The position numbers and the translations under genes were made by a program. Shown piece by piece: positions 1,157-51,698 of a DNA stretch of 64,000 nucleotides; the stretch's first letter is position 1, and every line of letters starts with the position of its first letter. The DNA is from Spinactinospora alkalitolerans. Its GTDB lineage: Bacteria > Actinomycetota > Actinomycetes > Streptosporangiales > Streptosporangiaceae. A model generated the notes under the pieces. That model searched no databases. It saw only the letters and a program-made list of their open reading frames with translations, and was not told the origin of the DNA. Location: assembly GCF_013408795.1 (NCBI RefSeq), contig NZ_JACCCC010000001.1, positions 4,216,001-4,280,000 of the forward strand, given 5' to 3'.

Positions 1157-2680
1157 TCAGTTGACCGCGGCTTCGCCGGAGGACGGAGGCCGTCCGCCGG
1201 CCGCTCCCGGCCACACCGGGTCGGCCTGCGCCGCGGCCCGCCGGGGTTCGGCGAACAGGCCGGGCAGGTCGTGCCCCATCCGGTCCCGCTTGGTCTGCAG
1301 GTAGCGCAGGTTGTCGGCGGTGACGACGGTGGGCATCGAGATCCGCCGGGTGACGCTGACGCCGTACCGGGAGATCCCCTCGACCTTGCCCGGGTTGTTG
1401 CTCAGCAACCGGACCGAGCGCACCCCGAGGTCGGCCAGGATCCGGGCTCCCGCGCCGAACTCCCTGGCGTCGGCCGGCAGGCCGAGTTCCAGGTTGGCGT
1501 CGACGGTGTCGATCCCGGAGTCCTGCAGCCGGTAGGCCTTCAGCTTGTGCAGCAACCCGATGCCGCGCCCCTCGTGGCCGCGCAGGTAGACGAGCACGCC
1601 GCGGCCCTCCTCGGCGATGCCGGCCATGGCGGCGTCGAGCTGGGTGCCGCAGTCGCAGCGGTGCGAGCCGAAGGCGTCACCGGTGAGGCATTCGGAGTGC
1701 AGCCGGGTCAGCACATCGGTGCCGTCGCCGAGGTCGCCGTAGACCAGCGCGACGTGCTCGGCGCCGTCGCTCGGACTCCGGTAGCCCACCGCCCGCCACT
1801 CCCCGTAGCGGTTGGGGATGCGGGTCTCCACGACCCGGTCGACAAGGGTGTCGGCCCGCGACGAGTCCGCCTCCTCGCTCCGCTCCACCGCCGCAGCGAC
1901 ACGCGCTCCGCGAACAGGCACCGACGCCTCCGCTCGCTCGTCGGCTCGCAGCTCGGCACCCCCACTCGCGCTCACCTCCTCGCTCCGCTCCACCGCCGCA
2001 GCGACACTCGCTCCGCGAACAGGCACCGACGCCTCCGCTCGCTCGTCGGCTCGCAGCTCGGCGAGCTGCTCCACCGAGATCAGCCTGAGCCCGTGCTCAT
2101 CGGCGAACTCGCGCAGCCGCGGCAACCGCGCCATGGTCCCGTCGTCGTTGACGACCTCGGCCAGCACGCCGGCCGGCCGCAGCCCGGCCAGCCGGGCCAG
2201 ATCCACGGCGGCCTCGGTGTGACCGCGGCGGACGAGCACGCCGCCGGGACGGTAGCGCAGCGGCAGGATGTGGCCCGGCCGGACGAAGTCGCCGGGGACG
2301 GTGCGCGCGTCGGCGAGCAGCCGGATGGTGTGGGCGCGGTCCGCGGCCGAGATGCCGGTGGACACGCCGGAACGGGCGTCCACCGTGACGGTGTAGGCGG
2401 TGCGCATGCTCTCCTCGTTGACCGAGGTCATCAGCGGGAGGTCGAGCCGGTCCAGGTCCTCGCCGAGCATGGGCACGCACACCACGCCGGAGGTGTAGCG
2501 GATTATGAAGGCCAGCAGCTCCGGCGTTGCCGCATCCGCCGCGAAGATGATGTCGCCCTCGTTCTCGCGGTCGGTGTCGTCCACGACCACGACCGGGCGG
2601 CCGGCGGCGATGTCGGCGACCGCTTCGGTGACGTCGTCCAGCGGGATGAGTGCCTCGGACTGCTCCTCGGCGATCGACAT
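1157..2680 (-). CDS. ribBA: Bifunctional 3,4-dihydroxy-2-butanone 4-phosphate synthase / GTP cyclohydrolase II
   Basis: This 507-aa protein carries out the two entry reactions of riboflavin synthesis. The N-terminal RibB domain (about 1-200) has the acidic loop [16 protein letters not shown]. The C-terminal RibA domain has the zinc ligands in [15 protein letters not shown] and the [16 protein letters not shown] segment. ATG at 2680 is preceded by AAGGAGC. The inter-domain linker (about residues 205-275), normally short, holds a perfect-period 35-residue duplication ([15 protein letters not shown]… twice). This is encoded by the dispersed repeat at 1870-2049, so the linker was expanded in frame by repeat insertion. 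Both catalytic halves look intact. Confidence 0.95.
1870..2049 (-). repeat. Two tandem copies of ~75-bp SD-bearing dispersed element inside ribBA
   Basis: Two near-identical copies (1870-1944 and 1975-2049, period 105 bp = 35 codons) lie in the linker of ribBA. In the gene's direction each begins CCGACGAGCGAGCGGAGGCG with TCGG closing a small stem, and ends GGAGCGGAGCGAGGAG. The upstream copy is followed directly by GTGAGCG. The same element, in the same orientation to the gene, lies before carA (35440-35515 and 35610-35685). The copies differ from each other at one visible base. Confidence 0.85.
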
Positions 2681-3636: not shown

Positions 3637-3722
3637 TCTTTCGAACGTCTCTGTGAACAAGTGTGCCATGCGGGGGTATTCCCGGCATCCACCGGGGTCG
3701 GCCGGAACGGCGCCCCGCGGCC

Positions 3723-14191: not shown

Positions 14192-15025
14192 TCAGGTCCG
14201 GCGCGCGACCCCGGCCACGACTCCGACCCCGGTGCCGGTGACCTCCTCGTCGGGGTAGGGCCACCAGGACATGTCGGCCAGGCCGGGCTCGATGAGCGCG
14301 AAGGGGTCGAACAGGGTGGCCGCCAGCTCCCGGGCGCAGGGGTCGCCGGGATCGGGCGGTGTGCGGGCGATGGCGATGTGGCCGCCCGGGCACATCGCCT
14401 CGTGCAGCGCGCACACGAGGTCGCGGGCCGCGTCGCCCTCGAGCCGCGGCGGGGGCGGCTCCGCCATCAGGACCGCGACGGGCTCGGTGAAGTCGATCCG
14501 GCCCCGGAGCCGGAGGTCCCCGATGAGGACGGCGGGGTCGGCGCCGTCGGCCTTGAGGACGGTCACGGCCCTCTCGCGCGACGACGCCCGGCCGTGCAGC
14601 GACACCACGGGGTCGGTGTCGACGTAGACGACGCGGGCGTCGGGAGCGTGCCGGCGGGCGGCGTGCTGGATGCCGTCGGCGGCCGGGAGCCGGGAGTCCA
14701 GGTCCACGAACTGCCGGATGCGCAGGTCGGAGGCGAGGTAGTCGACCACCCGCCACAGGAAGCCGCGTTTGGCCCGCTCGGTCCGCGGCCGCGCCGCCGC
14801 GGCGGGCGGCTGCTCCCGCCGGGGCCGCACCAGGTGGTCGTCGATCCGGATGACGCGCGGGCGCGCGTCGCCGGTCTCGGAGGCCTCGCGGCCGCTCCCC
14901 CGCGCGGGGGCTCCGTCGCCGCCTCCTGGAGGGCGCCCCGCCGCACCGGCGCCAAGGGCCGACGCGGCCAGGGGCGTCCTCCGGGACGGCCACGCGCCGG
15001 GGCCGCCCCCCGGTTCACAAGTCAC
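14192..15025 (-). CDS. Diverged SAM-dependent methyltransferase-like protein (PF04672 type)
   Basis: A 277-aa product whose middle (about 80-260) follows the actinobacterial 'S-adenosyl methyltransferase' family: LRIRQFVDLDSRLP, ARVVYVDTDPVV and EAMCPGGHIAIA. The usual N-terminal motif resembling YDYLLGGKDNF is absent. It is replaced by a Gly/Ala/Pro-rich stretch and IRIDDHLVRPRREQP, and the glycine-rich SAM loop reads DLDSRLP. Substrate binding may be altered. The exact start is uncertain; residues 1-55 are low-complexity and translation could begin later. Confidence 0.6.
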   Translation of the reverse strand: MTCEPGGGPGAWPSRRTPLAASALGAGAAGRPPGGGDGAPARGSGREASETGDARPRVIRIDDHLVRPRREQPPAAAARPRTERAKRGFLWRVVDYLASDLRIRQFVDLDSRLPAADGIQHAARRHAPDARVVYVDTDPVVSLHGRASSRERAVTVLKADGADPAVLIGDLRLRGRIDFTEPVAVLMAEPPPPRLEGDAARDLVCALHEAMCPGGHIAIARTPPDPGDPCARELAATLFDPFALIEPGLADMSWWPYPDEEVTGTGVGVVAGVARRT

Positions 15026-15237: not shown

Positions 15238-16572
15238 TCAGGACCGCGGGTCCGGGACCGGGGCGATCCGGCCGTCGACGTGGCCGTAGGTCCAGCGCGG
15301 GCCGCGCGCGGCGAGTTCGGCCACCGCGCCCACGAGCCGGTCGACGTGCTCCTCGGTGGTGCCCAGCCCCAGGCTCGCCCGCACCGCCTGGGAGTGGGAG
15401 GGCGGCAGCAGCCGCCGGGTCAGCAGGTGCGCGCAGAACAGCCCGTCGCGCACGCCGATGCCGTGCTCCGCCGACAGCGCCGCGGCCACCAGGTCGGCCG
15501 CCAGCCCGTCCACCACGAACGAGACGATGCCGACGCGGGGGTGGCCGGCGCCCCACAGGCTCAGGTCGTGCACGCCGGGGATCGCGGCCAGGCCGGCGCG
15601 CAGCCGGTCCAGCAGGCGCTGCTCCTGCTCGTGCAGGCGGTCCCGGCCGGCCGCCGACAGCGTGTCGCAGGCGGCGGCCAGCGCGACCGCGCCCAGGACG
15701 TTGGGGCTGCCGGCCTCGTGCCGCGCCGGCAGGTCGTTCCAGCGCACGTCGTCCTCTGTGACGTTCGCCGTGGCCCCGCCGCCGGCCAGGTAGGGCGCCG
15801 CGGCGCGCAGCCAGTCGGTCCGGCCGGCCAGTACGCCCGAGCCGAACGGGGCGTAGAGCTTGTGCCCGGAGAGTGCCACGTAGTCGGCGCCGCTGCTCGA
15901 CAGGCCGAACGCCCGGTGCGGGACCAGTTGGGCCGCGTCGACGGCGATGCGGGCTCCGGCCGCGTGGGCCACCTCGGTGAGCTCCTCGACCGGCCACAGC
16001 TCGCCGGTGACGTTGGAGGCCGCGGTCACGCACAGCAGCCGCGGCCCCTCGGGTGCGGTGCGCAGCGCGTCCCTGGCCGCATCGACCGCGGCGGCCGGGC
16101 TCGCGGGCAGCGGCAGCCGGACGACCCTTCCGGCCCTGCCGGCCCGGTGCTGCCAGGGCAGCAGGGCCGCGTGGTGCTCGCCGGAGAAGACGACGACGGT
16201 GCAGCCGTCGGGGACCGACCGGGCCAGCAGGTTGAGCGCGTCGGTGGTGCCGCGGACGAAGACCACGGCGTCGTCGCCGCGGGCCCCGACGAATCGGGCC
16301 ACCGAACGGCGCGCCCGCTCGTAGGCCTCGGTGCTGACCTGGGAGTGGAACCCGGCGCCGCGGTGCACGCTGGCGTAGTAGGGCAGCGCCTCCTCCAGCG
16401 CCCGGCGCACCGGGACCAGGCACGGGGCGCTGGCCGCGTAGTCGAAGTTGGCGTAGTCCACGTGCTCCCCCGTGACCAGGGGGATCCGCACGTCGGCCCC
16501 CACGACGCCGGTCTCGGGACGCTCGGCGCGGGTGGCGGGGGCAGTGGCGGGGAAATCGGCGACGGCCGTCAT
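15238..16572 (-). CDS. Class V PLP-dependent aminotransferase / cysteine desulfurase-like enzyme
   Basis: A 444-aa fold-type I PLP enzyme. Visible motifs are NFDYAASAP at the N terminus, FVRGTTDALNLLA and SGEHHAALLPW. The PLP lysine lies in ALSGHKLYAPFGSGVL, with DAAQLVPH just before it. Relatives include selenocysteine lyases and cysteine desulfurases. A SAM-IV riboswitch in its leader places it in sulfur amino-acid metabolism. No catalytic mobile-loop Cys can be assigned with confidence, so desulfurase activity is inference. ATG 16572 is preceded by GGAGGTGCCCTG. Confidence 0.85.
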   Translation of the reverse strand: MTAVADFPATAPATRAERPETGVVGADVRIPLVTGEHVDYANFDYAASAPCLVPVRRALEEALPYYASVHRGAGFHSQVSTEAYERARRSVARFVGARGDDAVVFVRGTTDALNLLARSVPDGCTVVVFSGEHHAALLPWQHRAGRAGRVVRLPLPASPAAAVDAARDALRTAPEGPRLLCVTAASNVTGELWPVEELTEVAHAAGARIAVDAAQLVPHRAFGLSSSGADYVALSGHKLYAPFGSGVLAGRTDWLRAAAPYLAGGGATANVTEDDVRWNDLPARHEAGSPNVLGAVALAAACDTLSAAGRDRLHEQEQRLLDRLRAGLAAIPGVHDLSLWGAGHPRVGIVSFVVDGLAADLVAAALSAEHGIGVRDGLFCAHLLTRRLLPPSHSQAVRASLGLGTTEEHVDRLVGAVAELAARGPRWTYGHVDGRIAPVPDPRS

Positions 16573-16639
16573 CAGGGCACCTCCATGGGGTCGGGGGACC
16601 CCAGGGCGCACGGTCGTGCTGCCACGGGACGGGGTCCGC

Positions 16640-16758
16640 GCTTGTCCGACACGGTTACGGTCGTGTCTTGACCTGGTCCTCACCCGGGGCACCCCACCGC
16701 GGAAGGAGGGTTGCCGGCCAGCAAGCCGGGGCTTGACGCTGGCACTCATGACCTGCGC
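16640..16758 (-). promoter_or_regulatory. SAM-IV riboswitch
   Basis: On the minus strand the leader reads GGTCATGAGTGCCAGCGTCA, then AGCCCCGGCTTGCTGG, CCGGCAACCCTCC, CGCGGTGGGGTGCCCCGGGT and GAGGACCAGGTC. This is the core and pseudoknot-side pattern of the actinobacterial SAM-IV class. It lies between a -10 box and the class V PLP enzyme, so that gene is expected to be shut off by S-adenosylmethionine. The precise 3' boundary is approximate. Confidence 0.85.
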
Positions 16759-16762
16759 GCCA

Positions 16763-16768
16763 CTATAG
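16763..16768 (-). promoter_or_regulatory. -10 box of the SAM-IV-controlled gene
   Basis: TATAGT on the minus strand lies 5-6 bases before the riboswitch, so transcription would begin just at the aptamer's 5' end. No clear -35 was identified. Confidence 0.6.
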
Positions 16769-50279: not shown

Positions 50280-50420
50280 GTCAGCCAATCTCCCACATAC
50301 CACTGGAATCCAAACGCGGACACGGGGCGTTATCGCTGTAGGCGTAGTGGTGAGCGGTGACGAGCGGGCGCGTTGCCCCCACCGCGCCGCGACGTTCTAG
50401 CATTGCCGTAGAACATGAAA

Positions 50421-50512
50421 CCCCGCGGGAGCCGGGTGGGACCCGGCTGAGAGGGAGGCTGTGAGCCTCCGACCGCACGAACCTGATCCGGATCATGCCG
50501 GCGAAGGGAGTG
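50421..50512 (+). promoter_or_regulatory. TPP riboswitch
   Basis: The THI-box blocks appear in order: CGCGGGAGCCGGGTGGGACC, CGGCTGAGAGGGAGGC, GACCGCACGAACCTGATCCG and GATCATGCCGGCGAAGGGAG. It ends about 10 bp before thiO and overlaps its ribosome-binding region, so thiamine pyrophosphate should block translation of thiO-thiS-thiG. Confidence 0.97.
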
Positions 50513-50522
50513 GAGGCGAGAC

Positions 50523-51698
50523 GTGCGCACACCACCATCCGACCACGGTTCCTCCCGGCCCGCCCCCGATGTCGTCGTCGTCGGAGCCGGGCTGATCGGC
50601 CTGGTCACCGCATGGCGGGCGGCCCAGCGGGGACTGCGGGTGAGCGTCGTCGCGCCGGAGCCGCACGCGGCGGCCTCCGGCGTCGCCGCGGGGATGCTCA
50701 CCCCGGCCACCGAGGCCGCCTTCGGCGAAGAGGCCCTCATGCGGTTCGGGATCCACTCCCGCGACCGCTACCCCGGTTTCATCGCCGAACTGGAGTCCGA
50801 GAGCGGCCGCGACGCCGGGTACCGCGCCGAAGGGACCCTGCAGGTCGCCTTCGACACCGACGACCTGGCCCGGCTCACCGAGCTGATGGAGCTGCAGGGC
50901 CGGCTCGGCGTCAAGGCCCAGCGGCTGACCGGCCGCGAGTGCCGGAGGCTGGAACCGATGCTGGCGCCGTCGGTGCGCGGCGGCGTCCTCGCGCCCGAGG
51001 ACCACTCCGTCGACCCCCGCCGGCTGATGGCGGCGCTGCGGGCCGCGGCGCTGCACCGCGGCGCCGAGCTGGTCACCGACCGCGTCACCGAGGTCGTCGT
51101 ATCCGGCGGCGCCGCGCTGGGCGTGCGCCTGAGCGGCGGCGACCGCCTGGACGCCGGGCAGGTGGTGCTGGCGGCCGGCACCTGGACCCCCGGCATCGGC
51201 GGGGTGCCGGCCGACGTGCTCCCGCCGCTGCGTCCGGTCAAGGGGCAACTGCTGCGGCTGCGCACCCCCGAGGGCGAGGAGCCGATCGTCACCCGCACGG
51301 TGCGCGGCCTGGTCAGGGGTACGCCCGTGTACCTGGTGCCGCGGGCCGACGGCGAGATCGTGCTCGGCGCCACGCAGGAGGAGACCGGGTACGACACCCG
51401 GCTCACCGTCGGCGGCGTGTGGGAGGTCCTGCGCGACGCCCGCGAACTGGTCCCCGGCGTCAGCGAACTGGAGATCGCCGAGACCTGCGTGGGCCTGCGC
51501 CCCGGCTCCCCCGACAACGAGCCGCTGCTCGGTCCGACCCGGATCCCCGGGCTGCACCTGGCCGTCGGCCACTTCCGGCACGGCGTGCTGCTGACCCCGG
51601 CGACCGGCGACGCCATGGCCGAGGCGCTGACCGGCGCACCACTGCCCGACCACGCCCGCAGGTTCGCCGCGACCCGTGACCTCGGTGTCCCGGCCTGA
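50523..51698 (+). CDS. thiO: Glycine oxidase ThiO
   Basis: A 391-aa FAD enzyme giving dehydroglycine for the thiazole ring. It has the dinucleotide-binding VVVVGAGLIGLVTAWRAAQRG, the substrate-side SGVAAGMLTPATEAAFGEE, and C-terminal LRPGSPDNEPLLGPT and HFRHGVLLTPATGDAMAE. GTG 50523 follows the riboswitch's final GGAGTGGAGGCGAGAC. A dispersed repeat begins 3 bp after its stop. Confidence 0.95.
   Translation: MRTPPSDHGSSRPAPDVVVVGAGLIGLVTAWRAAQRGLRVSVVAPEPHAAASGVAAGMLTPATEAAFGEEALMRFGIHSRDRYPGFIAELESESGRDAGYRAEGTLQVAFDTDDLARLTELMELQGRLGVKAQRLTGRECRRLEPMLAPSVRGGVLAPEDHSVDPRRLMAALRAAALHRGAELVTDRVTEVVVSGGAALGVRLSGGDRLDAGQVVLAAGTWTPGIGGVPADVLPPLRPVKGQLLRLRTPEGEEPIVTRTVRGLVRGTPVYLVPRADGEIVLGATQEETGYDTRLTVGGVWEVLRDARELVPGVSELEIAETCVGLRPGSPDNEPLLGPTRIPGLHLAVGHFRHGVLLTPATGDAMAEALTGAPLPDHARRFAATRDLGVPA

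Follow-up and report, generated by a model that had tools for sequence, protein, structure and literature searches.

In the window (the whole stretch of 64,000 nucleotides of Spinactinospora alkalitolerans DNA analysed here), a SAM-IV riboswitch directly precedes a gene for a class V PLP enzyme resembling cysteine desulfurases, and the same pairing recurs in most of the actinomycete genomes that carry the enzyme. In a reading that we place just short of probable, SAM represses this gene, and its product is a cysteine desulfurase that provides sulfur for making homocysteine. When homocysteine is formed by way of a sulfur-carrier protein, something must donate the sulfur, and a SAM-gated desulfurase is a concrete candidate for this; if the proposal is true, it assigns a function to an enzyme that reaches none of the curated NCBIfam cut-offs and brings the mobilisation of sulfur into the SAM-IV regulon.

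The SAM-IV aptamer and its leader

A covariance-model search (Rfam cmscan) matched RF00634 on the minus strand over its full length (model positions 1–116 of 116), scoring 111.8 bits (gathering score 38; E 8.3e-20). This confirms the SAM-IV riboswitch of the original prediction, which had been placed at 16640–16768 and whose aptamer now spans 16633–16753. No second SAM-IV turned up in a search of the whole 6.68 Mb genome. The aptamer lies on the same strand as the Aminotran_5 gene, 60 nt from its start codon, that is, in the position of a 5' leader. The hexamer TATAGT stands 8 bases ahead of the aptamer, and the pattern TA...T is kept in 9/9 aligned leaders (the window and eight Nocardiopsidaceae loci), but a scan of the leader with the strict sigma-70 consensus scored no promoter; the -10 box, described earlier as clear, has its letters and their conservation in its favour. 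A search of the leader for an intrinsic terminator found none. The fold energy of the aptamer is ordinary (z 0.12, with 109 of 200 shuffles folding at least as well), so that the evidence for SAM-IV consists of the covariance model and conservation. The riboswitch itself is an ordinary SAM-IV, for which SAM binding and an effect on expression are predicted. Note that the window contains two further riboswitches above their gathering scores in the cmscan search, an FMN riboswitch at 3637–3507 (-) and a TPP riboswitch at 50415–50526 (+).

Table 1. Positions in the window of the riboswitch, its leader elements and the downstream gene
Feature	Position	Strand	Basis
-10 box TATAGT	16762-16767	-	letters read; transcription would start at ~16754
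SAM-IV riboswitch aptamer (RF00634), full length	16633..16753	-	Rfam cmscan
Aptamer tail GGACCCCG, candidate anti-sequester strand, overlapping the aptamer 3' end	16630..16637	-	pairs with 16596-16603; inferred
Switching strand TGGGGTCC, able to pair with either the aptamer tail or 16586-16592	16596..16603	-	inferred
GACCCCA, 3' arm of a hairpin ending one base before the Shine-Dalgarno sequence	16586..16592	-	inferred
Shine-Dalgarno sequence GGAGG	16580..16584	-	sequence
Class V PLP enzyme P0001, cysteine-desulfurase-like, 444 aa, stop included	15238..16572	-	ORF, HMM, fold
Lys238 codon, PLP lysine by SufS alignment	15859..15861	-	invariant 98/98
Cys380 codon, candidate persulfide cysteine, loop RxGxFCA[HQ]	15433..15435	-	invariant 98/98; aligned to SufS loop cysteine

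The leader also offers a candidate expression platform (Table 1), in which the aptamer tail and the GACCCCA arm are alternative partners of the same strand: TGGGGTCC is complementary to the tail GGACCCCG and can pair instead with GACCCCA. Of the 64 leaders searched (62 distinct), 29 show this three-part arrangement, against 4 to 12 in ten rounds of a simple 2-base block shuffle; the search pattern yielded no leader for 13 of 76 loci, which were left out. Among the 29 matches, those of L200, L203 and L216 look like chance and one comes from a duplicate genome. The letters of the strands have changed in leaders that keep the arrangement (e.g. L171, L173, L017 and L217). The arrangement fits translational repression by SAM, which remains a prediction. 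When SAM is plentiful, the folded aptamer would keep the tail occupied, the GGGGUCC strand would be left to pair with the GACCCC strand adjoining the Shine-Dalgarno sequence, and less enzyme would be translated; when SAM is scarce, the tail would pair with GGGGUCC, leaving the start site free for the enzyme to be made.

A cysteine-desulfurase-like enzyme distinct from SufS

The assignment of the gene product to the class V PLP enzymes of the cysteine-desulfurase kind, made in the original prediction, holds: the protein matches Pfam Aminotran_5 with 267.7 bits, and it reaches no curated cut-off in NCBIfam. The best NCBIfam model is SufS (TIGR01979), with 270.3 bits against a cut-off of 475.1; CsdA, SclA, NifS, DndA and EgtE are likewise under theirs. 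We therefore rejected the names SufS and CsdA, given scores far below the curated cut-offs, as well as those of selenocysteine lyase SclA (NF040779, 118.7 versus 525 bits) and ergothioneine lyase EgtE (TIGR04343, 55.8 versus 400 bits). Among solved structures, the relatives retrieved by sequence mostly bear the name cysteine desulfurase. An AlphaFold2 model of the enzyme (mean pLDDT 83.4, pTM 0.84; poor at residues 1–18 and 259–289) has as its closest fold the cargo desulfurase of M. smegmatis (8kg1; Z 42.9, rmsd 2.8, 377 aligned residues), followed by SufS structures at Z of about 39–41, with the best 50 structure rows spanning Z 38–43.

An alignment of 98 members (97 distinct, L006 being identical to L221), of which 77 are actinobacterial, the window's enzyme among them, and 21 clostridial, shows no variation at eight residues: His133, His134, Asp212, Gln215, Lys238, Arg375, Cys380 and Arg398. 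The PLP lysine and the loop cysteine of group II-type cysteine desulfurases are both present throughout. The loop RxGxFCA[HQ] occurs in nearly all members and reads GLFCAH in the window; the second H of the SufS-type loop is replaced by F in 97 of the 98 members and by M in one. The enzyme thus shares its fold, PLP lysine, loop cysteine and arginines with the group II cysteine desulfurases SufS/CsdA and 8kg1, and differs from them in having GxFCA[HQ] in place of GHHCA, in forming a separate clade, in scoring below the cut-offs and in its SAM-riboswitch control. GHHCA is the loop of the SufS-like copies seen in relatives and of the one in the window's genome. With four SufS-like copies as the root, the tree groups 76 actinobacterial members in one clade (support 0.93) and the 21 clostridial members in a second (0.996); two misread rows (L293 and L296) make the deeper branching unreliable. 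One candidate member, L195 in genome G048, passed the E-value threshold but fell outside the actinobacterial clade and was rejected. The enzyme probably removes sulfur from cysteine.

The next frame on the same strand, with a Methyltransf_19 domain, starts at 15025 or lower, which leaves 212 bases or more between it and the stop of the enzyme gene. The gene therefore looks monocistronic, in agreement with its earlier description as stand-alone.

Conservation of the SAM-IV/enzyme pairing

We surveyed 246 actinomycete genomes drawn evenly at a completeness of 95 or more, with a protein threshold of E<=1e-70. SAM-IV is found in 176 of them and the enzyme in 106; some SAM-IV is present in 101 of the 106 enzyme-bearing genomes. 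Four of the 106 (G137, G190, G199 and G235) lie outside the positional count, and among the 102 settled cases SAM-IV is directly upstream of the enzyme gene on the same strand in 97 (80 + 6 + 11); the five settled loci without SAM-IV upstream are in G048, G116, G134, G167 and G222. In a set of named genomes, relatives occur at 20 loci, and SAM-IV lies just upstream in 15 of the 16 actinobacterial ones, the relative in Amycolatopsis xylanica (L015) having no SAM-IV upstream. Conservation of this SAM-gated desulfurase-like gene extends over Streptomyces, Nocardiopsis, Actinomadura and others.

Most neighbours in the 77 loci are particular to a lineage (SseB, PBP, rhomboid and Na/H exchanger are examples), and we gave up operon context as a main argument for this reason. 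Note that a 1134-aa gene downstream in L009, considered as MetH, is SseB according to Pfam. The original prediction would have been refuted by orthologues lying in non-sulfur operons, and here the outcome is mixed: most neighbours are lineage-specific and several that were identified are not sulfur genes, but five loci adjoin monooxygenases of organosulfur type and three a cysD–cysN-like pair. More specifically, luciferase-like monooxygenases (NtaA/DmoA, MsnO8 or KPN_01858 type) lie near the gene in L185, L186, L187, L190 and L206; they were called by HMM for L185, L187, L190 and one L206 gene, and by clustering for L186 and the other L206 genes. They may resemble YtnJ and YtmO of B. subtilis. 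L186 also contains an M20 hydrolase and an ABC substrate-binding protein, and L206 a TauD-like protein (161 bits, cut-off 313). In L190, two back-to-back SAM-IV riboswitches (1956–2073 (-) and 2175–2291 (+)) serve the desulfurase gene and a divergent operon of two luciferase-like monooxygenases. The orthologues in L185, L186 and L187 (f34 genomes) have no SAM-IV and lie near the organosulfur-type genes. As for the cysD–cysN-like pair, which adjoins the gene in L191–L193, CysD is confirmed in L192 and a translation-GTPase-like protein was tested in L193; its identity as CysN is suggested by position.

Other targets of SAM-IV

Weinberg et al. (2008) are said to have described the SAM-IV riboswitch RF00634 on metY/metX. 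The aptamer, its position in the leader and its occurrence in actinobacteria are the same here, but the downstream gene is class V desulfurase-like and not an enzyme of the homoserine pathway. Passages of two papers likewise give metY or metXY as SAM-IV targets (PMC3774663; PMC4239095). At 20 SAM-IV sites away from the enzyme gene, picked by hand across families, the riboswitch precedes a homocysteine-forming gene in 19, namely MetY (17, of which 14 by a first-gene test and three, L298, L304 and L311, by coordinates), MetX (1) and MetZ (1); L301 is the twentieth site. In this hand-picked sample SAM-IV marks homocysteine formation, besides the desulfurase-like enzyme. The MetZ case is L316, where a MetZ-like O-succinylhomoserine sulfhydrylase takes the place of MetY.

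A metM–metO-like pair under SAM-I in the same genome

Searches for SAM-IV, SAM-I and SAM-I-IV in the window's genome yielded two SAM-riboswitch loci, the desulfurase-like gene and a metM–metO-like pair, which lie far apart. The only SAM-I riboswitch found (G000:C1:270885-271024) precedes a threonine-synthase-like (metM-like) gene, itself followed by a 92-aa ThiS-family carrier ending in PAVAGGC, at about G000:C1 272404-272682 (L133:2905-3183); SAM-I-IV (RF01725) gave no match at E<=0.001. The genome thus combines a SAM-riboswitch threonine-synthase-like gene with a diglycine ThiS-family carrier. Searches of this genome for MetY (E<=1e-120) and MetX (E<=1e-80) gave no match; a search for ThiF gave a single protein over the cut-off, which bears a rhodanese domain (MoeZ-like). 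Going beyond the original prediction, we consider the metM–metO-like pair a likely consumer of the sulfur.

Hasebe et al. (2024) reportedly described the MetM/MetO route to homocysteine in Streptomyces, with its metM–metO arrangement. The window's genome, too, has a metM-like and a metO-like gene controlled by a SAM riboswitch; what differs is the enzyme described here, encoded at an unlinked locus and proposed as their sulfur donor. In passages of PMC12172450, MetM is a Streptomyces homocysteine synthase, metO is named in S. albulus, a SAM riboswitch lies upstream of S. albulus metM and is absent for the cyanobacterial homologue, and no sulfur donor for the carrier route is named.

The metM-like protein passes the threonine-synthase cut-off (TIGR00260, 270.5 versus 167.1 bits), which weakens its assignment as MetM and does not remove it. 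In 6/6 named actinobacterial genomes, a MetM-like copy (65–86% identical to that of the window's genome) is found apart from weaker threonine-synthase-like copies (34–39%). The predicted MetM role in the window's genome rests on this identity and on the riboswitch–carrier arrangement. Among 68 loci, in which at least three genomes occur twice, 39 MetO-like carriers have a readable C-terminus, ending in AVAGGC in 20 and in AVAGG in 19; carriers ending in GGC would need removal of the terminal Cys before thiocarboxylation.

Co-occurrence with MetM, MetX and MetY

MetM is present in 157 of the 246 genomes (G047 and G264 only by weak matches near 1e-69), namely in 88 of the 106 enzyme-bearing and 69 of the 140 enzyme-free genomes (Fisher p 3e-8, confounded by ancestry). 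Since MetM follows families, this raw association is no independent evidence. The enzyme occurs in 51 of 81 MetM-only genomes versus 37 of 76 genomes with MetM and MetX/MetY, a difference that is not significant (Fisher p 0.079). In family f1 the pattern is 18/1 versus 4/4 (Fisher p 0.017); families f20 and f21 do not show it, and f19 shows the reverse. A tight link of the enzyme to MetM, or to a lack of MetX/MetY, did not emerge as a general rule. All 106 enzyme-bearing genomes match MetM, MetX or MetY at the thresholds used; the 18 without MetM all have MetX/MetY. Conversely, 30 of the 81 MetM-only genomes (one of them, G047, with only a weak MetM match) are without the enzyme, so that it is not an obligate partner of MetO and is, at best, a SAM-tuned partner where present.

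Proposed function and alternatives

The proposal that the gene encodes a SAM-repressed cysteine desulfurase for homocysteine synthesis would operate as follows: (i) the enzyme, with PLP on Lys238, would accept the sulfur of cysteine on Cys380, in persulfide form; (ii) in the window's genome, the sulfur would most likely be passed on via the rhodanese domain of the lone ThiF–rhodanese (MoeZ-like) protein and then to the C-terminal thiocarboxylate of the MetO-like carrier; (iii) MetM would use the charged carrier and O-phosphohomoserine to form homocysteine. Relatives that have MetX/MetY would use the sulfur in that branch instead. The aptamer, its conservation before this gene, the invariant residues, the metM–metO-like genes and the E1–rhodanese are observed here; we infer the direction and mechanism of the switch, the desulfurase activity and the transfer of sulfur to MetO, its probable destination in the window's genome. 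It is possible, although we hold this more tentatively than the general proposal, that the enzyme is the missing dedicated sulfur donor of the MetO/MetM pathway and that SAM-I and SAM-IV, at unlinked loci, gate one relay from cysteine to methionine. The idea in the original prediction that SAM control marks a sulfur-freeing step for methionine synthesis draws indirect support from the upstream SAM-IV in nearly all settled cases, from the homocysteine-forming genes behind other SAM-IV sites and from the eight invariant residues. Against the proposal weigh the loose association with MetM, the threonine-synthase match of the metM-like protein, the distance between the enzyme gene and metM in the window's genome, the five settled loci and L015 without SAM-IV, and the commonness of the family in Clostridia, where the scanned loci have no SAM riboswitch upstream.

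The monooxygenase neighbours raise another possibility, that the enzyme is a C–S lyase or desulfurase of organosulfur salvage, which would free sulfur from an S-modified cysteine delivered by FMN monooxygenases when SAM, and with it sulfur for methionine, is short. The M20 hydrolase and ABC substrate-binding protein of L186, the TauD-like protein of L206 and the monooxygenase operon of L190, whose own SAM-IV adjoins the divergent one of the enzyme gene, would all suit such a role. This context is found, however, in only 5 of 77 loci (a lower bound, as not all unclustered neighbours were identified), the neighbours in the window are of other kinds, and the desulfurase cysteine, which a simple lyase should not need, is invariant; we thus regard salvage as unlikely.

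Alternatively, the enzyme could release free sulfide from cysteine for MetY-type sulfhydrylation and not provide carrier-bound sulfur, as might be expected in the 18 enzyme-bearing genomes that have MetX/MetY and no MetM match, five of which were examined (L312–L316) and have SAM-IV before metY, metX or metZ; in the window's genome, where neither MetX nor MetY was found at the thresholds used, this role is unlikely, and we consider this explanation quite unlikely overall. A fold and catalytic residues like those of SufS would also be expected of a general sulfur donor for Fe–S clusters or tRNA thiolation, with SAM control merely tuning it to radical-SAM or methylation demand. Such a function appears very unlikely to us, as a further, SufS-like gene encoding the GHHCA loop is present in the same genome, the neighbourhood of the enzyme gene showed no suf gene, and SAM-IV elsewhere precedes homocysteine-forming genes.

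Relation to earlier reports

The pairing itself has already been listed: in passages of a study of S. lividans TK24, SAM-IV stands before SLIV_26975, a 'cysteine desulfurase (thiamine metabolism)' (PMC8079986). This is probably the same pairing; at L013, a locus from a named Streptomyces, SAM-IV precedes the orthologue of the enzyme. In those passages the name is printed as an annotation assigned to thiamine, and no function or conservation is argued. The literature search, which covered titles, the beginnings of abstracts and passages, returned no proposal that the enzyme feeds MetO and no work joining a SAM riboswitch with a class V aminotransferase. As far as this literature goes, a SAM-gated desulfurase for homocysteine synthesis, possibly the donor of MetO, is new. 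Methionine control of a cysteine desulfurase has an independent precedent in the MetJ regulon of Vibrionales, which, according to passages of PMC4239095, includes the cysteine desulfurase gene csd. Both would be cysteine desulfurase genes under methionine/SAM-responsive control (predicted for the enzyme); csd, unlike the SAM-IV gene, is under a protein repressor and in Proteobacteria.

Clostridial relatives

The enzyme family also occurs in 124 of 147 genomes of the order of Clostridium liquoris (the clostridial order of G285; E<=1e-70). A SAM riboswitch upstream of the homologue was found in none of the 14 loci scanned out of 21 wide-flank loci, and the role of the clostridial proteins may be broader. 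We did not retain the clostridial context as an independent witness, as it neither supports nor excludes a desulfurase for methionine synthesis. In L016 (7605-7894, Clostridium liquoris) and in L269, the only two of the 14 that adjoin SAM-I, a tandem SAM-I lies downstream of the homologue, before an ABC transporter set that, judged by eye, reads like metNIQ.
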